DNA of 64,000 nucleotides from Gracilaria domingensis. Its lineage: Eukaryota; Rhodophyta; Florideophyceae; Gracilariales; Gracilariaceae. Positions within the stretch are counted from its first letter, which is position 1; the number at the start of each line of letters is the position of its first letter. Shown here piece by piece: positions 2,191 through 52,178 of this stretch. Under the pieces are notes generated by a model that worked only from the letters and a program-made list of their open reading frames with translations, was not told where the DNA came from and made no database searches. The stretch lies in assembly GCA_022539475.1 (NCBI GenBank), contig VCMS01000124.1, positions 1 to 64,000 on the forward strand. The letters are read 5' to 3'. The position numbers and the translations under genes were made by a program.

Positions 2191-3051
2191 ATGGTGACTG
2201 TATCAGGAAAAATGGCAGAGGAACAGAGAGACTTGGCGGAAATTTCACCAAATACCTTGTCTAAGTTCATATATGCCAATGGTTACGGTATATTAAGTTC
2301 CGTTGATGGAACGTTGAGAAGAGAAGGAGAGTCAATTCCAGAAGAAGTTGTGAAGTGTATGAAGTTCATTGACGAACGTGTTGGTTTCGGACTTGTCACA
2401 GGGGGTGATGTGGGCGACGTGGAGGGGAAAATGGAAGGACTCGGAGACTATAAGTTTGGTGTCTCGGCGAATCATGGAGCTTTCATGCGTTTCTCTGACG
2501 AGAGGGAAATTAAGGGTGCATTCAATGATCACACCCTTGACCACACTGTTGACGGACTACTGTTCCTGGCAAGGGATTTGAATAGGAGGCATGGTATTGT
2601 GAATGATGATGACAAGGGGTTCGTGGAGACCAGAAGTGATAGTGGCCTTCCCAATTTCGTGTACAACAAACTGTGGCAGTGGAAAGAAGAAGTGGATTCT
2701 GCTATTGGGGACCTGTTGCAGAAGATGGATGCGTTTGTTATCTATCCCGGCGATAAAAGTTGCGAAATTGTGGACAAGCGATACACAAAAGGAAGCGGAG
2801 GAGAAAATCTTGTGGATAATGAACCGAGATTTATTGATACGGATGACGTCGTGACGTTCGGAAGTGCTTTGAGCGACGGGCCTTTGCATGAGGTAGGCGT
2901 GTACGGCGTTCACGTCAAAGAAGATTGTATCCCGCGTGGAGTACACAACCTGTTCGAAAGCGTGGAGGATGTACATTCGACAATTATGTTGGTGGCTCTG
3001 TTGTACGGCTACGAGGAAAAGCAGCACGATAAAAACCACCATGAATCATAG
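2191..3051 (+). CDS. HAD-superfamily phosphatase paralogue lacking the nucleophile Asp (likely inactive)
   Basis: This 286-aa protein is clearly paralogous along its length to the minus-strand protein at 3104-3976. Both look like the class IIB (Cof/trehalose-phosphatase-like) HAD group: DxDGT loop, a TGRD-like motif II region and a GNxxxNDGP-like motif IV. Here the first Asp of DxDGT is Ser (SSVDGT, S37); the second Asp (D39) is kept. Motif II reads TGGD instead of TGRD, and motif IV reads GSALSDGP instead of GNASNDGP. In HAD enzymes the first Asp forms the phospho-aspartyl intermediate, so ordinary phosphatase activity is not expected. The frame is intact over 860 bp, which suggests retained function, perhaps binding or regulation. 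A second Met at codon 8 is an alternative start. The gene ends 52 bp from its converging paralogue. Confidence 0.72.
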   Translation: MVTVSGKMAEEQRDLAEISPNTLSKFIYANGYGILSSVDGTLRREGESIPEEVVKCMKFIDERVGFGLVTGGDVGDVEGKMEGLGDYKFGVSANHGAFMRFSDEREIKGAFNDHTLDHTVDGLLFLARDLNRRHGIVNDDDKGFVETRSDSGLPNFVYNKLWQWKEEVDSAIGDLLQKMDAFVIYPGDKSCEIVDKRYTKGSGGENLVDNEPRFIDTDDVVTFGSALSDGPLHEVGVYGVHVKEDCIPRGVHNLFESVEDVHSTIMLVALLYGYEEKQHDKNHHES

Positions 3052-3103: not shown

Positions 3104-3976
3104 CTAAGTATTACAGGCATCGTAGCACTGGAAACAAATTCCAAGAGCATTTCTAAACCATTGACACTTGCATTTTCTGTACCCGTACAGTTCTGCCACC
3201 CTTCTGATGGTCTCATGCACGTCCTCCACCCCATCAACAAGATATGTTACCGCTGGTGGAGGGTCGTCTCCCTTCACATGAACTGCGAGGGTTGCCATTT
3301 CATATAGAGGACCATCATTGGAAGCATTCCCGAAAGCAACGATTAAATGTGTGTCGAACTGGGGGTCGTTTTCAACCAAGGCTAGCGCCCCACTATTTTT
3401 CGTGAAACGAATGTCCCCTATGTCACAGTTTTCATCTTGAGGGTACGCAACCAGGTTCGGAAAGGATGTCAACACTTTTGAAATACCGGAGTTAACTTCT
3501 GTTTTCCACTTCGATAGTCCATTGTACGTGAAGTTAGGGAGTCCACTGTCTTTTCTAGTGCTCACCACTGCTTGTTGACGCTCTTCGTGAAGTCCGTGCG
3601 ATTCATTTAAGGAGAGTGCAAGTCTCTCAAGTTCGGCTGCACATCTTTCGTAACCTTCCCTGTCAAGGTCCTGATCAATTTCGGTACCATTGGATAATCT
3701 CACCCGTGCGCCTTGGTTTCCAGAGATGCCAAAAGTGTAGCCACCCAGGTGCTCCATGAAACTCTCGGCATCCTCTATATCTCGCCCAGTAGCAATTCCG
3801 AAACCAACGCGTGCGTTGATGTACTTCATGCATTTGACTGTTTCGGCAGGAATGTTCTCCCCAGCTCTTTTCAGAGTACCGTCAACATCACTAATCACGG
3901 CGTAGCCATTTTCGAATATTTCGTTAGCCAGCTGCTGAGGAGTTACTTCTTGGGCTCTAACTTCCGAGTTATACAT
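3104..3976 (-). CDS. HAD-superfamily phosphatase (Cof/trehalose-phosphatase-like)
   Basis: The frame is open from 4075; Met at 3976 is preferred because homology with the paralogue at 2191-3051 starts just after it, giving about 290 aa. The protein has an intact SDVDGTLK catalytic loop, TGRDIEDAE in the motif II region, a Lys/Thr-containing FTKNSG segment in the motif III region, and GNASNDGP in motif IV. These are the expected residues of an active Mg2+-dependent HAD phosphohydrolase. The cap region resembles sugar-phosphate phosphatases such as trehalose-phosphatase, but the substrate is not defined by sequence alone. The gene is tail-to-tail with its degenerate paralogue, 52 bp apart, so the pair looks like an old inverted duplication. 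The C-terminus has a short Cys-rich tail absent from the paralogue. Confidence 0.75.
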   Translation of the reverse strand: MYNSEVRAQEVTPQQLANEIFENGYAVISDVDGTLKRAGENIPAETVKCMKYINARVGFGIATGRDIEDAESFMEHLGGYTFGISGNQGARVRLSNGTEIDQDLDREGYERCAAELERLALSLNESHGLHEERQQAVVSTRKDSGLPNFTYNGLSKWKTEVNSGISKVLTSFPNLVAYPQDENCDIGDIRFTKNSGALALVENDPQFDTHLIVAFGNASNDGPLYEMATLAVHVKGDDPPPAVTYLVDGVEDVHETIRRVAELYGYRKCKCQWFRNALGICFQCYDACNT

Positions 3977-18684: not shown

Positions 18685-19893
18685 TCATTGCGTTGGAGCT
18701 CTACTATACACGGACGCTATTTGGTTCAGACCAGCTACCCGCGTTCTGTAGTTGACCAGATGACAGGCAACGCTCAGCAGCCGTCCCCGCTTGTAATGGT
18801 CACCGGGAAGGGTCCTGGTCAGGCGACGGAAAGGTGCTTTGAGGCCTCGTACACCCCATTCGGCACTTTGCCTCTCACTCGGATACATTCGCTGCAGCAG
18901 AAGCTCAACAGCAACACAACCGTCGGACACTGGCAGATTCTTCCACTCGTTTACTTTGCGAGCTCGTACGACCTTTCCGGTTCTTCTGTCGTTCACAAAT
19001 GCGCTGTCTCCGAGAACAGCGTATCCCGGTGGTGTGTTGCTGTCCAATGCCAGTGAAGGCCAGTACAGCCCGGAAATGTAAGCTAGCCGACTATCGTGCC
19101 AGCTGCCCGGGAAGTTGAGCGCTGCGTGAATGATTTCTCTACGAAAGTTCCAAACAAGCAGATTGGTGGCTTCGACGCGTTGCGTCATTGCATTGTAGAA
19201 GGCGTTCTGCGTGTCGGGGTCCACGAAGTCCGGAACGCGCAATCTGGCTCCGTCGCTGATGGCAAATACACCCCGTAATGCGTAACCAAACAATCTATTC
19301 TTCCTTAGAAGCTCACAGGACTCTTGCATCTCACATGCTGTCGGCCATTTTATACGAAAGGGAGTATGCTTTTCGTCGGTAACGAGTTCAGACATGACTT
19401 CCATACCGTATTCCAACCACTCCGCCACAGAAGACGGCGTAATTCCGAACACGGGACACAAACTGTACTCCACATCTCCGCTTTTTAAGTACCATAATAC
19501 CATCCCGAGAAGGTCTTCAGTTTCTAGCAGCGGTTTACGACCTCGCCTCGAATGCGAACGTCGAAACGGGGAGCCATTTCTAATATGTTTTCTTTTCTCT
19601 GAGAACCAAGGTATCAAATCACGGAGAAGCAAAGAGCGCGGAAAGCTTGTCGCTACAAGAAACTCGGCGTTTGAGCCACAACGGAATAAGTGCCGCCAAG
19701 GTGTGGTGTGAAATTGAGGTCTGAGCAATCCAATTCGATGGAACTTAACGGGCTTTGCATACCGTTTGAACTCCCTTTTGTGCCTCTGTTGTTGATGTTT
19801 ACGTATGAGTGACAAACAGAACAGTTGTAGAATGAAGATAATAGATGGAATCTGGACAACAAAGGCTAGTTCAATGCTTGGATCGGAAGCCAT
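18685..19893 (-). CDS. Harbinger-type DDE transposase (element A)
   Basis: The intact 402-aa ORF starts at ATG 19893. A hydrophobic N-terminal stretch (11-30) precedes a basic region. A helix-turn-helix candidate lies at 125-160 (LETEDLLGMVLWYLKSGDVE onward). The RNase-H-like DDE core has Asp in AISDGAR (D214), Asp in LGDSAF (D296) and Glu in SAEWGVRG (E345), the spacing and flanks of PIF/Harbinger transposases. Its closest relative is the copy at 20369-21570, alike over the whole length. It would cut the terminal repeats and make 3-bp target duplications, as found at the ends of this element. No stop or shift is present. Confidence 0.9.
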   Translation of the reverse strand: MASDPSIELAFVVQIPSIIFILQLFCLSLIRKHQQQRHKREFKRYAKPVKFHRIGLLRPQFHTTPWRHLFRCGSNAEFLVATSFPRSLLLRDLIPWFSEKRKHIRNGSPFRRSHSRRGRKPLLETEDLLGMVLWYLKSGDVEYSLCPVFGITPSSVAEWLEYGMEVMSELVTDEKHTPFRIKWPTACEMQESCELLRKNRLFGYALRGVFAISDGARLRVPDFVDPDTQNAFYNAMTQRVEATNLLVWNFRREIIHAALNFPGSWHDSRLAYISGLYWPSLALDSNTPPGYAVLGDSAFVNDRRTGKVVRARKVNEWKNLPVSDGCVAVELLLQRMYPSERQSAEWGVRGLKAPFRRLTRTLPGDHYKRGRLLSVACHLVNYRTRVAGLNQIASVYSRAPTQ

Positions 19894-20368: not shown

Positions 20369-21570
20369 TGGCTCACGCTTCAAGCACTGACGTTTCCTCT
20401 CTATTACCATCGTGCGCGTTGATACTGCAATTATACTGTCTGACATTAATACAGAAACGTAAACGAGAAAAAATACAAAGAACGTTCAGACGTTGCTCAA
20501 AGCCCGTCAAGTACTACCGTTCAGGTCTACTGCGGCCCAAATTTCACACTACCCCATGGCGCCATCTTCTTCAGTGTGGCTGAGAAATCGAGTTTCTAGT
20601 TGCGACTTGCTTCCCACGATCATTGGTTCTCCGAGATTTAGTGCCATGGTTTTCCGCGAAACGCCAGCAGGTTCTGAACGGCTCTCCCTTTCGTAAAGTG
20701 GAAACAAAGAGAGGTAGAAAACCAATGCTTGAAACAGAAGATCTTCTCGGCCTTGCACTGTGGTATATGAAAAGTGGTGATGTTGAATATAGTCTCTGTC
20801 CGATCCTTGGATTAATTCCATCAGCCATGTCGCAGTGGTTAGAGTACAGTATGGAGGTGTTGTTAGCGGTTGTGATGGACGAAGAACAGAGCGAATTTCG
20901 TATTACATGGCCAACAGAAGTTGAAATGAAAGAGTCTTGCGAGCTACTTCGGAAGAACAGGTTGTTCGGGTACGCGTTGCGGGGTGTGTTTGCGATCAGC
21001 GATGGTGCGCGCATGCCTGTCCCGGATTTCGTTGATCCTCAAACTCAGAACGCGTTTTACAATGCAATGACCCAAAGGGTGGAAGCCAGGAATCTCCTTG
21101 TATGGAACTTTCACGGTGAGGTCATACACGCAGCTCTGAATTTCCCCGGGAGTTGGCATGATAGCCGCCTGGCGTATGCATCTGGACTTTACTGGCCCTC
21201 ACTGGCACTAGATTCCAACACACCTCCTGGATATGCAATCCTCGGGGACAACGCTTTTGTGAACGACCGACGGACAGGGAAAGTGGTACGGGCGCGTAAC
21301 GTCAACGAGTGGAAAGACTTGCCAGTGTCTAACGGGTGTGTCGCAGTTGAGGTGGTGCTTCAACGCATGTACCCTTGTGAAAGACAAAGCGCAGAGTGGG
21401 GTGTTCGTGGGTTGAAAGGACCTTTTCGTCGGCTGACAAGGACGCTCCCTGGAGATCATTACAAGCGCGGGCGACTGCTGGACGTTGCATGTCGTCTTGT
21501 GAACTACAAAACGAGGGTAGCTGGCTTAAACCAAATCGCGTCCGTGTATCGTACCGTTCCAAGGTGGTAA
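20369..21570 (+). pseudogene. Harbinger-type DDE transposase of element B, one in-frame TGA
   Basis: ATG 20369 opens a frame homologous from start to end to the transposase of element A. After 70 codons a TGA (20581-20583) replaces the Ser/Asn position that follows LFRCG in A; the frame then continues open to 21570. The catalytic residues are kept (AISDGAR, LGDNAF, SAEWGVRG). With the stop, only the 70-aa N-terminus would be made, so this copy depends on another source of transposase or is dead. The rest is well conserved, suggesting that the stop is recent. Confidence 0.85.
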
Positions 21571-25914: not shown

Positions 25915-27459
25915 TCAGTTAAGATCGAGTGCAATCTTTTTCACTATCTTCAAGTCGCAGTGTACTTTTGTCGCAAGGAGACGCCCATACTGTTCATCGG
26001 CCTTGTAAAAGTGCGCACACATCGTATTCTTCACCTTGTCTGACTTAACCTGGACCAGATCTGCCGCAAGGTTGTCCACTAGATTCTTCCGATCCTTTCT
26101 GGAAAAGCCGCGGTATGTGTCACCTGCCTGCTCGAAGTTGAGCGTCTTCTCAATGCTCGCCTGTTGGTAGCTGCCACACACCCCAATGCTTGAGTATTTG
26201 AAAGCCAAATCTTCGCGATAGGAGTTTGGCGAGTTGTTCGGTTCGTAGTTGATGGAACCATTCCAAGCATGCTCGTACGTCATGACTCCATCTTGATTGT
26301 ACGTGTGCACGTCTGACTTGGGCCTGTTCACAGGAAGTAGATTGAATGAGTTGGATCCAAGTCGGTGAGTCTGAGATTCGTGATAGGAGACGAGACGGCC
26401 TTGCAACAAACGGTCCTCCGAAGGCTCTATCGCTGCTGGGAGGAAGTTTCCAGGGTCGAACGCAGACTGCTCCGAGAAGATGTGGAAGTTCGTTGGGATT
26501 CGATCAAGCACAATCTTGCCGATTGGCGTGAAAGGGAACTGACGTACAGGCCACTCCTTTGTTGCATCGAGGGGATTGAACTCAAAGTCGTCAAGCTGTT
26601 CCGGTTTCATGGTCTGAATGGCCAGTTCCCATGATGGGAAATCTTTCCGTTCAATAGCGTCGTAGAGATCCTTCGTAGCGTGGCTGAAACTCTCAGACTG
26701 AATGCGTGCCGCCTCCTTTCGAGTGAGGTTTCGAACACCTTGGTTGGTGAACCACCGGAACTTCACATATGTGACCTCCCGATTCTTATTGACAAACTTG
26801 AAGGCATGCACAGAGTTTCCATCCATAAACCGATAGGAAGCCGGAATGCCAAGGTCCGAATACACGTGAGTGAGCATGTTGGTGGCCATTCCGCCCAATG
26901 CCGAGAAGAAATCGAAGAAACGGTTCGGGTCCTGCAGGTTTGTCACCGGATCGGGCTTCAGGCTGTGCACCATGTCCGGGAACTTAATGGCGTCGCGAAT
27001 GAAGAAAACCGGCAAATTGTTTCCGACCAGATCCCAATTTCCCTCCTCAGTTTTGAACTTGATTGCGAACCCTCTTGGATCCCTGACGGTTTCCGGCGAA
27101 TGTTTTCCATGAATCACAGTTGAAAAACGGACAAATACTTCTGTCTTGGCGTTGGTATTGAAAACTTTCGCTTTCGTAAGATGCGACAGGGATTCATACG
27201 GTTCGAAATAGCCGTGAGCACCTGCTCCCCTTCCGTGAACAACTCGTTCTGGGATGCGTTCATGATTGAAACGGCGGAGCTTTTCCAGCATGTAGATATC
27301 TTGAAGAAGAACAGGACCGTTAAGAGATGCTGTCTGTGAGTGCTGGTTAGATCCGGCATATCGCCCGGTCTCTCCAGTCAGAATCTGATGCCCTGAACAT
27401 ATTTGAATCAAAAGGGCAACCAATATGCATTTCGGGAATCTCATAGTGAAACGACACAT
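25915..27459 (-). CDS. Haem catalase with N-terminal signal peptide
   Basis: The 514-aa protein is a full monofunctional catalase that breaks H2O2 into water and oxygen. The distal His is in ERVVHGRGAGAHG (H75), the catalytic Asn in LVGNNLPVFF (N148), and the haem-ligand Tyr in RLVSYHESQTHRLG (Y359, with R355 nearby). Small-subunit length (under 550 aa) and the lack of a flavodoxin-like C-terminal domain fit the common small-subunit clades. The first 23 residues (a second Met at 6, then a hydrophobic stretch ending CSG) look like a secretory signal. The C-terminus (ALDLN) is not a peroxisomal PTS1. Several NxS/T sites occur (for example NGS, NLT). It is thus likely extracellular or in the secretory pathway. 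There is a TATA-like TTATAAAG about 285 bp upstream. Confidence 0.93.
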   Translation of the reverse strand: MCRFTMRFPKCILVALLIQICSGHQILTGETGRYAGSNQHSQTASLNGPVLLQDIYMLEKLRRFNHERIPERVVHGRGAGAHGYFEPYESLSHLTKAKVFNTNAKTEVFVRFSTVIHGKHSPETVRDPRGFAIKFKTEEGNWDLVGNNLPVFFIRDAIKFPDMVHSLKPDPVTNLQDPNRFFDFFSALGGMATNMLTHVYSDLGIPASYRFMDGNSVHAFKFVNKNREVTYVKFRWFTNQGVRNLTRKEAARIQSESFSHATKDLYDAIERKDFPSWELAIQTMKPEQLDDFEFNPLDATKEWPVRQFPFTPIGKIVLDRIPTNFHIFSEQSAFDPGNFLPAAIEPSEDRLLQGRLVSYHESQTHRLGSNSFNLLPVNRPKSDVHTYNQDGVMTYEHAWNGSINYEPNNSPNSYREDLAFKYSSIGVCGSYQQASIEKTLNFEQAGDTYRGFSRKDRKNLVDNLAADLVQVKSDKVKNTMCAHFYKADEQYGRLLATKVHCDLKIVKKIALDLN

Positions 27460-43533: not shown

Positions 43534-44823
43534 ATGTTTCAAGTCAATATCAATTCCAACATTGTAAACGGTATCTACAGCGCGACTGGAGTGCTCTTGT
43601 TCATCCTGGTCAGTTTCTTCATTAACACTATTGTCCACTGCCATAATCTGCACAAGATCTATGATGCACGAAAGCCATTACGTCTCAGCACAACCCGTCT
43701 CTCCATCTTCATGGATCCCGGTCTGGCCCCTCGTGCTCTTTCTCGCCTCATGGCTCTGATCGGCTTACTGTTTGTGGCACTCATAACGGCTGGCGGCTTT
43801 GCTTTCGTTGGCGCCACAGAGCCCGTTTATGAGGAGGTGCACGTAAGAAATAAAGTGGTGAACGCTACTCGTGGAAACTATATCGATTTTCGGAACCATG
43901 TATCAATCGATGGACGCTTGGTCTCAGCTACACTTTTGATGTGTCTTTCAGAGTGTAGTGAACAAAACTTGAAAACTTCCACTTTTTATAATCAAATCAA
44001 CGACGATTTTCGTGATCTCAGAGATATAAAACATCGTCTGGACTACGCCCGCAACTCCACATGCGTCACTGAAGCAAATGGATTCGTCGAAGAGAGACGA
44101 GGCGAGTATGTCCGTGACAACCACCAGGCCCGGGAAGCTTGTTTGGATCTTATTCCTTACGAGGAGACCGGAAGGCTGAACCGGGCAAATGTATTTCGTC
44201 AGACACCTATGAACGGCACTTGTCCGTACCAAGACATAGAGGTGCGCTGCTCCGATTCCGATTCGGGTTTATATTGTGTCGGAAATGCTAGAAGGCAAGA
44301 TGACTTGGGTGGCTTTGTGTTTTTTAAGTTTGTGAGGCTAAGAATACGGAGTGCTCGCATGCAAACCATGGTAGATCACCAAGTCTTCAGATTACGCTTA
44401 CCAGAGAGAGACGATACAGACGTACTTACTTCGACTGCATTCCTTTTATCACGATTTACGGGGAGGATGGATGCATTCGTGCTGAGGAATTGCGCAGCCT
44501 CTAGGGTGGAAAAAAATGCGAGTGTGCAAAAAGTTGTGGGGGACAGAAATGTTACGCAGTTGAGAATTGCACTTCTCATGTCTACGTTTGGGCCAGCTAT
44601 GGCGCTTCTGGTAGCGTTGGCTACGGTCGCATTAGTAATGTGGGTTCGCGTAGTGTGGGTCAAGGGGCGAGGTGGATACAATGGTTTCAGTTCGAATGAA
44701 GATGCGTTGGCAAGTGCAGCTCAAGCGCTTCGCTGGCATACTGATGGTGAAGCGGAGCGCGCGGGGAACGGCGTGGTGGTGAGGGGTGTGCACGAGAGTT
44801 ATGTGGCATGCAAGCCTGAGTAA
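43534..44823 (+). CDS. Three-pass membrane protein with large glycosylated loop, paralogue 1
   Basis: The 429-aa protein has hydrophobic segments at about 16-38, 72-93 and 348-375. Between the second and third lies a domain of about 250 residues with 8-10 Cys and several NxS/T sites (NAT, NST, NGT, NAS, NVT), consistent with a luminal or extracellular position. The C-terminal tail (GYNGFSSNEDALASAAQAL and on) would be cytosolic. It shares NSNIV.G.Y, NLHKIYDARK..LSTTRL and the tail motif with the gene at 45135-46502, 310 bp downstream in the same direction. The pair arose by tandem duplication and is well diverged. No known family recognised. Confidence 0.75.
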   Translation: MFQVNINSNIVNGIYSATGVLLFILVSFFINTIVHCHNLHKIYDARKPLRLSTTRLSIFMDPGLAPRALSRLMALIGLLFVALITAGGFAFVGATEPVYEEVHVRNKVVNATRGNYIDFRNHVSIDGRLVSATLLMCLSECSEQNLKTSTFYNQINDDFRDLRDIKHRLDYARNSTCVTEANGFVEERRGEYVRDNHQAREACLDLIPYEETGRLNRANVFRQTPMNGTCPYQDIEVRCSDSDSGLYCVGNARRQDDLGGFVFFKFVRLRIRSARMQTMVDHQVFRLRLPERDDTDVLTSTAFLLSRFTGRMDAFVLRNCAASRVEKNASVQKVVGDRNVTQLRIALLMSTFGPAMALLVALATVALVMWVRVVWVKGRGGYNGFSSNEDALASAAQALRWHTDGEAERAGNGVVVRGVHESYVACKPE

Positions 44824-45134: not shown

Positions 45135-46502
45135 ATGATAATTCCTGTGCACTCAAACATAGTGAGCGGGTTGTACGTTGTCATCTTCGAAACAATCCTG
45201 CCCCTCATTCTTTGTGCAGCGCTCCAAGCATACATATACGCACACAACTTGCGTACCTTACACAACCGAAAAAGCTCTATACTCCTCACAACCACCCGAC
45301 TTTATATTGTAGCTGGCTTTGGTATCACAACGAAGAAAATTGCACGGCTCACATCTTTGGTAGGATGCGCTTCATTGCTTCTCACCATAATAGGGAGCTT
45401 TTCAATAGATGGGGAATCACGCCAGGCTACAAAGTTTGTCATCATGCCTCTGTTGGTTACAACAGCCAATTCTTCAAATGAATTAATCGACTTCACGAAG
45501 CATACGTCCCCCGATGGCTTTAATGTGTCTGCCACTTACTTACTAGCGAGGCAAAGATCCGCTTGCGTTAGTGAGAATCTGACAAATAAGGTGCTCTATC
45601 CTGCCATCGGCGACTTTGTTGAAGCTGAGAGTATGAACAGCGTCACATACGAAGTGAATTATTTCATTTCTAGTGTATCATGTGCTTCTAGCGACAAACA
45701 GTTTGAGCGCATTCAACACAGTGAAACCCTTCAGCTCTCTGCAGAGACAGATCTCTCTGGTCTCTGTCAGTTTAACAAGTCATTGAGTAAGAGACACTCT
45801 TCTGTATGGCAGGAGAATGGAGCAGTAACATGTAAGGGGAATGATACTGAAGTTATGGACATGTGGTGTGCAAGCTTTCTTTTTTTCGCATGCATTGCTC
45901 ACTTTCGGAGGGACAATATACATTTATACTTGCATGGTTCAACCCCTAGAAATCTTGATGCAAATGATGAGGATATGGAATGGACGCTTTATGCAGTGTC
46001 TTATCCTGCAATTCACAGCCAAACGCTTAAGTCGGCAGCATATTTGGTTGCACTGGGTCGGGAGCTATTTCCCAGAGTGATCGTTTTGTCGAGAACGACC
46101 ATCAAGCGAAACGTACCAGTTGAAGTAGTAGATGGGAAAGTGTTCGAAACAAAAGTATCGGTGTCACTGTTTCTGGGTTCCGCCGGAGTGGTGACGGTGA
46201 TCACCGTCGCGGTGTGCATTATTGCGCTGATCGAATGGAGACGAGAAGTAGTGCAGCACGGGCTGACGGGAAAGAACGGGTTTAAAGAGGCTATGGACCT
46301 GCTCACACTGGCGGCAAAACTGGGCGCGGACGAAGAAGAGGTGGCATCGAACGAGGAGGTGGTTGTCGGGGTGTCGGGGGGTGAGCCGCGAGTGGGGCCG
46401 ATGGCGGAGAGCAGCATTGGCGACGGTGCGTTCGATGAGCACGGCGTGGACGGCAGGCTGCGCCGCCGCACGAGGGAACTGGTGCTGCGCGTTGAGCAGT
46501 AA
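45135..46502 (+). CDS. Three-pass membrane protein with large glycosylated loop, paralogue 2
   Basis: The 455-aa protein has the same plan as paralogue 1. Start MIIPVHSNIVSGLY, membrane segment at about 12-35, NLRTLHNRKSSILLTTTRL, second segment at about 68-90, a luminal domain with Cys and NxS/T sites, third segment at about 350-372, and a tail GKNGFKEAMDLLTLAAKL. The C-terminal tail is longer and acidic, with a Gly/Val-rich stretch. The luminal domains are much less alike than the membrane parts and tails, which suggests faster change on the exposed side. Function unknown. Confidence 0.75.
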   Translation: MIIPVHSNIVSGLYVVIFETILPLILCAALQAYIYAHNLRTLHNRKSSILLTTTRLYIVAGFGITTKKIARLTSLVGCASLLLTIIGSFSIDGESRQATKFVIMPLLVTTANSSNELIDFTKHTSPDGFNVSATYLLARQRSACVSENLTNKVLYPAIGDFVEAESMNSVTYEVNYFISSVSCASSDKQFERIQHSETLQLSAETDLSGLCQFNKSLSKRHSSVWQENGAVTCKGNDTEVMDMWCASFLFFACIAHFRRDNIHLYLHGSTPRNLDANDEDMEWTLYAVSYPAIHSQTLKSAAYLVALGRELFPRVIVLSRTTIKRNVPVEVVDGKVFETKVSVSLFLGSAGVVTVITVAVCIIALIEWRREVVQHGLTGKNGFKEAMDLLTLAAKLGADEEEVASNEEVVVGVSGGEPRVGPMAESSIGDGAFDEHGVDGRLRRRTRELVLRVEQ

Positions 46503-48623: not shown

Positions 48624-51600
48624 TCAGCAACCGCCGCGCATCGGCGCGTACACCGCCGTCACGCCGTCCACGGCACGCCGCGCCACCTCCGCCGCCATGG
48701 CGCCCACGCCGTCGCGCGCATCGCCGCTCCCGCCGGCCGACCGTCTCGCCGCGCGCTCCGCCACGCGCTGCAGCTGCACCGCCGTCTGAATGAACTGCTC
48801 CATCATGGCGGCGCACCGCTTAAGCATGCCATGCGTTCGTGCCCGATCCCATCCGGCCCCGACCTCCGCGTCGAACCGCATCGCCTCGCTGCGAATGGCG
48901 TCCAGCTTCTTCAACAAGCTCTCCGCGTCGGTTTCACGCTTCGGCACGTGTTTCGTCAGCTTCTCGCCCAGATAGTCCTTCAGGAGTTCGAACATCTGCG
49001 GCTCGTAGCAGGTCACCACCTTCTTCAACGCGCTCTCCGCCTCGTCGTGCTTCGTGTACCGCCCCGTTTTCGCCGTGCGTTCGCCTGCGTCGCCGCCCAC
49101 GTCAATGTCGTCGAACTGGTTCCAGTCCAGTTCGAACACGCCCCGCCGCTCCATAACCGTCGCCAACAACGGCTCGCTCCACTCGCGCATGAACCGTTTT
49201 GCCCGCTCATCCGCTTGCTCGAACCCTTCCAGATGACCGATCTTGTACGCGTGGAGCATGGACGCCACGCGATAATTGTCCGCTCCGTGCGAAGTTTCAA
49301 AGTCGGCTGTGATGTCCTGGCCGCCCTTTTCAAGCAGCAGCTTGGGACCCCCGGGATGCACCTGCAGATATTGTGAGATATCGTACACGCCGTCGCGGAA
49401 CGTTACCCAGCAGTCATTGCTCGTGCGGTGCTCGGCCACCTCGGCGCGGCTGTACGTCTTCACCAATTGGTCTGGTTGACCGCTGTCGTAACAGTCTGCG
49501 TGCAGCCGTTTGTTCGCGGATAAACTGTCTGCAAACTTGGTCGCGTCCACCTCGTGTTCGTTATTTGCGCCGAATTGTCGAGCACCGGCTGCCAACGCGT
49601 GGCGCGTCATCAGCTCCAGTTCTGGCTTGCCGCACACGAAGATATGTGCGCCCTCGCCCGTTACAAGTTGCCACAGCTTGTGCAGTTCGCTGTGTGACGA
49701 GGTAAACAGGTCAGCAACATGTTTTCTCGGCGCGGAGCAGAACTGCAGATGATCTGAGTCTTGTGTCGTGGTGCTGTCGAGCTCAAAGTCTTCGCGGGAT
49801 ATCGCGAGCGAAAGATCGGCTACCTTGTGCTTGCATACGGCCTCCTCGATGTCGGAGATGAACGGAATTTTGTCCCGCGATTTCACCCCGAGAATCAGCC
49901 AGCTCTTCCGTCTTGGTGTGCCGTCGCGCTTTTGCAGCGCCAGCTGCTTGAGGAAGGGCCGGAAGGGCGCGAAGCCGGTGCCCTGCGCGATCATGATGAT
50001 CGGTACGGAGGGGTCTTGCGGCAGGTGGAAGTCGAGCGTGGGTACGATTCGCGCTGTGACCCGGTGACCGGGAGAAAGCGTTTTCAAGTAAGATGAGGAA
50101 ATGCCTTTCAGCGTGTCCAGTATTCTGTCGTCGCTGCTTTGGAACGATTCGAGGGAGGAAGGCGAGTGCACTGCAGTGGCCGTGTCTGCCTCCGCTTCAT
50201 CTTGACTGGCAGAGGATGCTTCGACGGTGTGAACGCCTTCTGAGATCCTTCTGCGCTTTGCGGCCTGTTCGCGGTGCGAAGCGTCGTTCTCGCGCTTGCG
50301 GCTGCCCTCTTCGGCTGAGGAGTGACTGGAAACGTCAGAGGCGAAGTTCTTGCACGAATCTAGAAGATGTTTTCCAGACACTGAGAGAGAAGAGTGGTGC
50401 GCGATTAAGGACTTGGCCGAGTACTGCACGCGTCCAACAACGATCTCCACGACATTTGGCTCGACTCGGATGTGCGATGCAATCGAGTAGTATCGAGGAG
50501 TGAGAGGTTCAAATATCGCGTCGAGCCTCGAGAGTAGTTTCTCTGTTGACGAAACTCCAACATGCTTCAAGAGCTCAAGAGCTCCTTTGACATTGGTGGC
50601 TTCTTCTGCCTGCAACAATGCGACGACAGAGGGGTCTGTTACGGACATGGCCTGAGCCAATCGCGAACCAAGTTGTCGATCGAGTGGCTGAAGCTTTGCG
50701 TATCGGAGAAAGTCTATCATCGTGAGTTCGACCTCCTTCTCTTTCTCAACATGCAGTCCTCTACGAGCCAACAGTCGAACCCAGTGCGGATCTGTGACCA
50801 AGACTTTTGAGTCGGGTTTCGCCTTCAATAAGTGCAACACGTCCTGAACGAGAGGATCTCGATTCTCGGGAAGAATGCCGAGAAGATCACCAGGTTTGTA
50901 GTGGAAGGCACCGTGTCCGTCTATGAGAACGCGGAAAGCATCGCCCCCAGGTATGGCAGACACTTCCTTGATCGTCGCTTCCGTGTACCAATCTTCCCGC
51001 AACCCAACTCGTTCCTTCATAGAGTTCTTCATAGACCTGTTGATAATTCTCCAGATGCGTCGGTCCCAACTGACCGACTGTCCCATACCATTTCCAGTAG
51101 CGGCCCGGCCTATCTTAAACATGATCTCAAGATATCCAGTTAGCCGAATCCTATGCTTTCCCAGAAAACCACTCTCGCCGCCAAAGGCGAGAACAGCTCG
51201 ACGGAAAAGAATGAGGAGTGCCTTGTTCTTATTAGACAGCACGTAGTCCATGGTAGATGTCTCCAAAACCTTTGAGAAGAACTCCTGGTGAATCTTGGGA
51301 AGCCAGGACTTTTCATGAGTCGCCAGCTTACCCAACTCTGATTCATACTTCCTGCGGCAGAAGAAGGCATCAAGCAAGTGAATGCTTGGAAAGAGTAAAC
51401 CAGAACCTCCTTTCTCGCCCTTTTCTACAGGTGAGGCTGATATGTCAATCGATCGAGACCAATCCACAGTGTCCATAGAGAACTTGTTCAGTGGTCTTGA
51501 GTCCGGTTTGGTAAAGGCTTTTGTCATGTTCTCCAACACGTCGATCATCTCTATAAGAGTATCTCTTAGTTGTCCATCATCAGCGTTCACCACAGCGTTT

Positions 51601-52178
51601 TGTGCAATGGTGATGAGTTTGGGGAGTGGGCGTGCGGCATGCTCAATCGAATACCCTTTCAGAACATAGTTGTGTTCCGCTTTAAGGGCAGTCATTGTGA
51701 TAGACGGGCGCATTTGGGTAAAAGGAGAGTCAATCTTCATCCCTTCGTACTTGGATAGAGCCTCGGGGTTGTAGACGAGGAAATCAATAGACGCCAAACA
51801 CGGAATTGATCGACCAAGTCGTTCAGATACCTTCTTCCATGGTATCGAAACGCAAGGCGGAATAGGCTTCTTGGCCACATGAAAAATGGCGTGAGCAATC
51901 GAGCCAAGAGCGAGATTGGCTCGGAGAAGATGTTGATCTGATAGAAAATCAAGGGGAAAATTGTTTTCGTCGGGAAGGGATGTGATGAACTGATCCCATT
52001 CGCCTGACTCGTATAAGTCGGGTAGCTGACGTGCTAGGGTGTGCCACTTCGAGAACGGTGCGGGAAGGGCTGGTAGGGGAAACGGGGGCAGAAAGCCATC
52101 AGTGTCCGACAGGAAAGCCTTTCCGTTATCGTCCGGATGTGCTGAAAGGTACGCATGACTGGGAGCGTATTGCGGCAT
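48624..52178 (-). CDS. Fused indoleamine 2,3-dioxygenase - FAD/NADPH reductase - cytochrome b5
   Basis: From ATG 52178 the uninterrupted frame encodes 1184 aa. Residue numbers below count from the TTG at 52217 (13 more). About 40-400 is an IDO domain: PFSKW..LA..LP, LALGSIAHAIFH, IPWKKVSERLGR, GGSG (270-273), WLPKIHQEF and KHRIRLTGY, where H355 fits the proximal haem His with Thr +5 and Tyr +7. About 412-600 is a P450-reductase-like FAD module (PRYYSIASH, 574-582). A low-complexity insert spans 605-695. About 700-880 is the NADPH module (GISSSYL, GTGFAPFRPFL at 746, VCGKPE at 861). About 918-1000 is cytochrome b5 with both haem His residues (HPGG H954; SHGAD H977). The last ~195 residues are unassigned. 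No FMN domain is present. Expected flow is NADPH to FAD to b5 haem to IDO haem, for tryptophan cleavage to N-formylkynurenine. The distal Arg region of IDO is not clearly conserved, so the substrate may differ. Confidence 0.85.
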   Translation of the reverse strand: MPQYAPSHAYLSAHPDDNGKAFLSDTDGFLPPFPLPALPAPFSKWHTLARQLPDLYESGEWDQFITSLPDENNFPLDFLSDQHLLRANLALGSIAHAIFHVAKKPIPPCVSIPWKKVSERLGRSIPCLASIDFLVYNPEALSKYEGMKIDSPFTQMRPSITMTALKAEHNYVLKGYSIEHAARPLPKLITIAQNAVVNADDGQLRDTLIEMIDVLENMTKAFTKPDSRPLNKFSMDTVDWSRSIDISASPVEKGEKGGSGLLFPSIHLLDAFFCRRKYESELGKLATHEKSWLPKIHQEFFSKVLETSTMDYVLSNKNKALLILFRRAVLAFGGESGFLGKHRIRLTGYLEIMFKIGRAATGNGMGQSVSWDRRIWRIINRSMKNSMKERVGLREDWYTEATIKEVSAIPGGDAFRVLIDGHGAFHYKPGDLLGILPENRDPLVQDVLHLLKAKPDSKVLVTDPHWVRLLARRGLHVEKEKEVELTMIDFLRYAKLQPLDRQLGSRLAQAMSVTDPSVVALLQAEEATNVKGALELLKHVGVSSTEKLLSRLDAIFEPLTPRYYSIASHIRVEPNVVEIVVGRVQYSAKSLIAHHSSLSVSGKHLLDSCKNFASDVSSHSSAEEGSRKRENDASHREQAAKRRRISEGVHTVEASSASQDEAEADTATAVHSPSSLESFQSSDDRILDTLKGISSSYLKTLSPGHRVTARIVPTLDFHLPQDPSVPIIMIAQGTGFAPFRPFLKQLALQKRDGTPRRKSWLILGVKSRDKIPFISDIEEAVCKHKVADLSLAISREDFELDSTTTQDSDHLQFCSAPRKHVADLFTSSHSELHKLWQLVTGEGAHIFVCGKPELELMTRHALAAGARQFGANNEHEVDATKFADSLSANKRLHADCYDSGQPDQLVKTYSRAEVAEHRTSNDCWVTFRDGVYDISQYLQVHPGGPKLLLEKGGQDITADFETSHGADNYRVASMLHAYKIGHLEGFEQADERAKRFMREWSEPLLATVMERRGVFELDWNQFDDIDVGGDAGERTAKTGRYTKHDEAESALKKVVTCYEPQMFELLKDYLGEKLTKHVPKRETDAESLLKKLDAIRSEAMRFDAEVGAGWDRARTHGMLKRCAAMMEQFIQTAVQLQRVAERAARRSAGGSGDARDGVGAMAAEVARRAVDGVTAVYAPMRGGC

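Follow-up and report, generated by a model that had tools for sequence, protein, structure and literature searches.

The stretch analysed here (the window) comprises the first 64,000 nt of contig VCMS01000124.1 (150.6 kb) from the red alga Gracilaria domingensis (assembly GCA_022539475.1; 77.9 Mb in 680 contigs). On its minus strand lies a gene whose product combines an indoleamine dioxygenase (IDO)-fold domain, a reductase of the flavin adenine dinucleotide (FAD)/NADPH type and a cytochrome b5 domain in a single polypeptide. The frame runs without interruption from an ATG at 52178 to a stop codon at 48624–48626, i.e. the 1184 stop-free codons noted in an earlier sequence-only reading of this DNA. 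A mechanically called TTG start further upstream extends the same frame to 1197 codons, and the plus-strand frame translated at the gene contains many stops. G+C content is 55% in the gene and 54% and 50% in its 5-kb flanks. The gene and its parts are:

48624..52178, minus strand: whole gene, 1184 aa; IDO-fold haem domain, FAD-NADPH reductase, cytochrome b5 and helical C-terminal region (Pfam and full-length homologues)
50979..52178, minus strand: IDO-fold haem domain, residues 1–400 (Pfam, predicted fold)
51153..51155, minus strand: His342, presumed proximal haem ligand (conservation and structural alignment)
50415..51002, minus strand: FAD-binding module, residues about 393–588, with the RxYS motif at 562–565 (Pfam FAD_binding_1, Foldseek)
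50097..50429, minus strand: probably disordered insert between the FAD and NADPH parts, residues 584–694 (model confidence score pLDDT <50)
49509..50123, minus strand: NADPH-binding module, residues about 686–890, with GxG at 733–735, Ser794 and CG at 849–850 (Pfam NAD_binding_1)
49209..49466, minus strand: cytochrome b5 domain, residues about 905–990, with haem His941 and His964 (Pfam Cyt-b5)
48627..49208, minus strand: C-terminal helical region, residues 991–1184 (helices in the predicted model)

Domain architecture and key residues

A Pfam scan of the translation placed IDO, FAD_binding_1 (E 5.5e-11), NAD_binding_1 (residues 729–859, E 1.1e-7) and Cyt-b5 (residues 911–983, E 1.2e-19) above their curated cut-offs, bearing out the four domains first proposed from the letters alone. 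All motifs quoted at the time were recovered as well: KHRIRLTGY (341–349), PRYYSIAS (561–568), GTGFAPFRPF (733–742), VCGKPE (848–853) and, in the b5 domain, HPGG (941–944). The IDO match (residues 24–224, E 1.3e-20, 74 bits versus a cut-off of 26) covers profile positions 8–209 of 412 only, and the second half of the domain had no Pfam match in the algal protein. This half was traced by other routes: a phmmer match to IDO2 covers residues 21–333, a profile of the family described below reaches profile position 337–338 when compared with IDO1/IDO2, one bacterial member aligned to the Pfam profile up to position 338, and in a fold search the IDO fold of the predicted structure extended to residue 399–400. 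Searched against the PDB, the family profile found human IDO2 at 1e-36, and Pfam IDO was detected at E ≤ 0.001 in 27 of 27 family IDO domains tested. For IDO-type domains standing alone, the same profile gave no match among 7994 scored candidates, a negative that is due to the word prefilter and carries no information, given the strong hit to human IDO2. Profile match and predicted fold together support the IDO fold originally claimed.

The histidine of KHRIRLTGY, His342, is invariant in our 185-row alignment (184 of 184 rows with a letter at this column; one more row lacks the domain). Judged by alignment ends (shift 0 on the N-terminal and 3–4 on the C-terminal side) rather than residue by residue, it corresponds to IDO1 342–346; the proximal haem ligand of IDO1 is His346. 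Both invariance and place in the structural alignment are consistent with His342 being the presumed proximal ligand, as the sequence-only reading had it, of a haem whose binding is predicted. Asp270 and Gly260 are each present in 184 of 184 rows covering the domain, and Arg358 in 183. In the profile alignment, the place of IDO1 Ser263 holds serine in 160 of 184 rows and that of Asp274 aspartate in 184 of 184.

For the FAD module, Foldseek returned the FAD domain of P450-BM3 as the best match; by sequence, the reductase part matched CysJ, BM3, nitric oxide synthase (NOS) and FNR modules. Its FAD motif (R562 in 183 rows, Y564 and S565 in 184) and NADPH motifs (S794 in 183 rows; G733, G735, C849 and G850 in all) are highly conserved among the 185 rows. 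R795, next to S794, is found in 133 of 185 rows only; in cytochrome P450 reductase (CPR), the arginine following this serine contacts the 2′-phosphate. Position 897 is aromatic in 184 of 185 rows. Both haem histidines anticipated for the b5 domain are present: His941 occurs in all 185 rows, and the second one (His964 in the alga) falls in column 964 in 14 rows and in the next column in 171. The absence of a flavin mononucleotide (FMN) domain was likewise borne out, with no Flavodoxin_1 domain in the window protein at E ≤ 1 in the Pfam scan and five matches elsewhere in the same genome.

The FAD and NADPH parts are split by an insert of about 110 residues (584–694), probably disordered as judged from its low-confidence model. 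The corresponding linker measures 85–172 aa in 14 of 14 eukaryote-type members, as opposed to a median of 6 and a maximum of 29 in 173 others. The C-terminal region was detected in 136 of 187 homologues with a profile built from 16 members, and matched no Pfam family above cut-off (best EF-G-binding_N, E 0.18, below its cut-off).

Conservation of the fusion and its bacterial gene neighbourhood

A first protein search gave 22 matches at E ≤ 0.001 among 7993 scored candidates, with an IDO domain in the window protein and 15 others. These included a full-length homologue, 62% identical, from a EukProt transcript-type record (P0002), a Gracilariopsis chorda protein recorded as nitric oxide synthase (P0004) and two proteins of bacterial kind. 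A search seeded with a bacterial-kind member yielded 663 matches (Pfam FHA in 36 of the best 120), and two short peptide patterns, run against the genomes of bacteria and archaea, revealed 54 loci, among whose phyla are Chloroflexota, Actinomycetota, Armatimonadota, Pseudomonadota and Myxococcota. The resulting set of 187 sequences comprises 134 of 140 proteins of our P series (P0017–P0022, which are not IDO, were dropped) together with all loci but one (53 of 54; L048, with no frame called, was dropped). Using profiles from 16 members, IDO, FAD, NADPH and b5 parts were found in that order in 184 of the 187 sequences, a set that was gathered with fused queries and says nothing on the frequency of stand-alone IDO-type domains; the three exceptions (L040, L052, L056) are short pieces. 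The whole fusion is kept across several bacterial phyla and eukaryotes, and Pfam and homologues alike support the combination of IDO, FAD/NADPH and b5 parts in one FMN-less polypeptide. As to a single transcript across all domains, the transcript-type record of the relative P0002 spans the same domain order.

A quick tree of 60 rows placed the 14 eukaryote-type proteins together on the same side of a branch with full support; it lacks an outgroup and its long branches meet, so the direction of transfer is not readable from it. The label "eukaryotic" for these 14 members rests on linker, tree and named rows (P0003 and P0005–P0014 carry no organism names). P0013 and P0014, the latter from EukProt, bear N-terminal extensions with repeated CPVTG/CPMGFG motifs before the IDO domain, which we take to resemble Cys-Pro haem-regulatory motifs. 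In the G. chorda protein, Pfam finds IDO instead of a NOS oxygenase, which rules out the identity given in its record; the name is likely a misannotation via the reductase part. The window protein, too, has a NOS-like FAD/NADPH module by sequence but differs from NOS in having no NOS oxygenase (Pfam, E ≤ 1), and an FMN domain is missing both there and, at E ≤ 0.01, in the G. chorda protein.

In bacteria, 51 of the 54 loci encode a CBS-pair protein upstream of the fusion gene and in the same orientation (tblastn); many Actinomycetota loci among them are closely related, and the link is also present in other phyla. Two of the loci without it, L033 and L052, start at the locus edge and leave no room for an upstream gene to be seen; L056 has upstream DNA and is a true miss, and its partial match (query residues 395–653) may reflect a broken fusion gene. 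The called fusion start lay −124 to +325 bases from the point where the CBS match ends (median 62; 50 loci with both measured), and the next commonest neighbour families occurred in 9 loci each. Pfam scanning of eight neighbour proteins revealed two CBS stretches in three of three CBS proteins, one of which (L010) has an additional REC-like part (27.8 bits versus a Pfam cut-off of 30.2). At the same locus, a RidA-family gene (the one scanned) precedes the CBS gene; the RidA cluster is found in 9 loci. Furthermore, 33 of 51 proteins possess an N-terminal stretch of more than 60 residues before the IDO domain, and Pfam FHA was detected in all 33 at E ≤ 0.01; among the remaining 18, L033 and L040 begin inside the IDO domain and 16 have no such stretch. 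CBS pairs usually sense adenine nucleotides, and the bacterial enzyme is probably switched by signals via its CBS-pair neighbour and, in part of the family, via the fused FHA domain. RidA is known for imine hydrolysis; that it neighbours some of the bacterial members would fit a substrate resembling an amino acid, but this is no more than a hint. As for the alga, the Pfam scan found no FHA domain in the protein, and no CBS relative was matched in a search that had no positive control and thus gives a weak negative.

Proposed electron path and candidate chemistries

Compared with IDO (PF01231; human IDO1 and IDO2), the algal protein shares the fold of residues 1–399, the profile match, a histidine whose place fits that of the proximal ligand and the Asp274 and Ser263 places; it differs in its low identity (about 20%), in the Arg231 and Ser167 places, which look changed in the profile alignment, and in the fused reductase, b5 and helical region. 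Like P450-BM3 (CYP102A1), NOS and other P450/reductase fusions, it combines, in a single chain, a haem oxygenase domain with a CPR-type FAD/NADPH module on its C-terminal side. In contrast to the P450-BM3 type, however, the fold is that of IDO rather than P450, the presumed ligand is His rather than Cys, and a b5 placed after the reductase stands instead of the FMN domain. As separate proteins, cytochrome b5 and NADPH-P450 reductase support human IDO1 in vitro, according to PMC13142367, which still describes the cellular reductant of IDO as unclear. The fusion has the same kind of redox parts, with the FAD part and b5 covalently joined and FMN missing. No description of an IDO-reductase-b5 fusion was found among the matches listed in open-licence PMC literature, which agrees with the sequence-only reading in that no IDO of such layout was known to it.

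PrnB and other His-ligated haem-dependent aromatic oxygenases (HDAO) have an IDO-related fold and chemistry other than tryptophan dioxygenation (PMC11791213). Fold and presumed His ligand are what the algal protein has in common with them. To our knowledge, none is fused to a reductase. Up to E 10, the PDB entries matched by the family profile were IDO chains and three unrelated proteins (E 0.15–0.84), with PrnB absent; in the structure search, the 50 matches listed were all IDO, with no PrnB or other fold among these.

Taken together, we consider it fairly likely that the gene encodes a self-sufficient IDO-fold haem oxygenase, with electrons passing from NADPH via FAD and b5 to the IDO haem and O2. 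This path is favoured because the kinds of parts that support IDO1 share one chain and the whole set is conserved; cofactors, electron path and O2 activation are what we infer. NADPH would reduce a tightly bound FAD, and b5, the likely one-electron shuttle because there is no FMN domain, would take single electrons from FAD and hand them to the His-ligated haem. The ferrous haem would then bind O2, and a small substrate, probably aromatic or amino-acid-like, would be oxidised. The permanent reductase might either guard against autoxidation or serve an oxygenase using NADPH in each turnover; the latter would explain both the changed distal pocket and the conventional tryptophan dioxygenase (TDO) that the alga keeps alongside. 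More tentatively, the family as a whole could comprise multi-phylum self-sufficient IDO-fold oxygenases with a b5 shuttle replacing FMN, a nucleotide-sensing CBS partner, in part a switching FHA domain, and a substrate other than free L-tryptophan.

A natural fusion of IDO, NADPH reductase and b5, kept in bacterial phyla and red algae, provides strong circumstantial evidence that such an electron route is able to serve an IDO-type haem and offers a one-protein system for testing IDO electron supply. It also suggests the existence of IDO-fold enzymes with a steady electron demand, i.e. with reactions other than the cleavage of tryptophan. The gene pair in bacteria (CBS and fusion) gives genetics for substrate finding.

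Several points weigh against a self-sufficient IDO-fold oxygenase. In classical IDO, electrons serve only for attaining and keeping the ferrous state (see also PMC13142367), and a permanent reductase may mean a chemistry different from that of classical IDO. The IDO1 Ser167 place is changed (Gln in 117 of 185 rows), and the Arg231 place is not basic, falling into a gap in the profile alignment; Lys/Arg at 242 (152 of 184 rows), close to the Arg231 place in a predicted helix, might stand in for it. In IDO1, Arg231 is the substrate arginine. The predicted models contain no haem or FAD positions, no substrate gene adjoining the fusion gene was identified in the alga, and neither b5 nor P450 reductase made the IDO relative PrnB active (PMC11791213).

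The original reading, in which the protein is a genuine tryptophan (indoleamine) dioxygenase forming N-formylkynurenine and reducing itself via its own reductase and b5, draws on the IDO fold and profile match, on the retained Ser263 and Asp274 places and on the presence of kynureninase (7e-115) and 3-HAO (2e-61) in the genome. Yet the genome also harbours a separate, conventional TDO (E 2.1e-93); the alga therefore does not depend on the fusion protein for the usual first step. The fusion protein is not the sole first enzyme of the kynurenine pathway, and it is unlikely to be the housekeeping tryptophan dioxygenase of the alga. NadA had no match in the genome, with the same search being positive in 12 of 14 control genomes; this pattern agrees with red algae in general as described in PMC4217691, where several divergent IDOs are also said to turn over tryptophan very slowly. 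The apparent loss of Arg231 at its aligned place also argues against this reading, subject to a possible replacement by residue 242. As to kynurenine genes near bacterial members, the context of the eight neighbours scanned does not decide the matter. While the IDO fold held up, tryptophan as the substrate is doubtful in view of TDO, the missing NadA match and the seemingly altered Arg231 and Ser167 places, and we regard a self-reducing tryptophan dioxygenase as unlikely.

More improbable is a nitric oxide (NO) dioxygenase or another flavohaem enzyme handling O2, NO or peroxide, in which an IDO-type haem would replace the globin of flavohaemoglobin. Globin NO dioxygenases exist, and flavohaemoglobin indeed unites haem and FAD/NADPH in one chain, as does the fusion; signalling-type neighbours (FHA, CBS, one with the REC-like part) would suit a stress response, and the window also contains a catalase gene about 21 kb away, possibly by chance. 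However, flavohaemoglobin has no b5, we know of no IDO-fold NO dioxygenase, and no NO-related gene was among the eight bacterial neighbour proteins scanned. We give slightly less credence still to a haem sensor, whose IDO domain would sense O2, NO or indole and gate electron flow from the reductase via b5 to another protein: FHA and CBS partners and a divergent distal pocket would fit, but the whole reductase is kept in 184 of 187 homologues, the algal protein has no FHA domain, and no CBS relative was matched in the alga (the weak negative above). Finally, nothing was found in favour of an assembly or gene-model error joining separate genes. As far as sequence can tell, it is refuted: genomes assembled independently and a transcript-type record share the domain order, and the frame is uninterrupted, which leaves such an error a negligible probability.

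Gene copies and other features of the window

One intact copy of the fusion gene was found in the genome. A second IDO match (C38:110860–111691), about 40% identical over residues 8–227, shifts to another frame and stops by residue 271, with nothing further found there. By sequence, this copy looks broken; a short unrecognised intron may lie at the frame change. Pieces of the 3′ half containing stops were detected at C17:98481–98964, C213:90248–90731 and C174:30847–31370. Those on C17 and C213 resemble each other at 98% over 3.4 kb; they match the window, too, at about 47.4–48.4 kb, just downstream of the gene.

Elsewhere in the window, the catalase gene (25915–27459, minus strand) is full-length (E 4.8e-154). 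Two opposite frames, 18685–19893 (minus strand) and 20725–21570 (plus strand), are 82% alike over 279 aa and probably form a transposase pair, the first one matching DDE_Tnp_4. The adjoining plus-strand frames 43534–44823 and 45135–46502 are 26% alike across 429 aa. They contain hydrophobic stretches, match no Pfam family and look like tandem members of an unnamed family of membrane proteins. Two facing frames, 2191–3051 (plus strand) and 3104–3976 (minus strand), are 48% alike, the first showing a weak match to HAD-like hydrolases.

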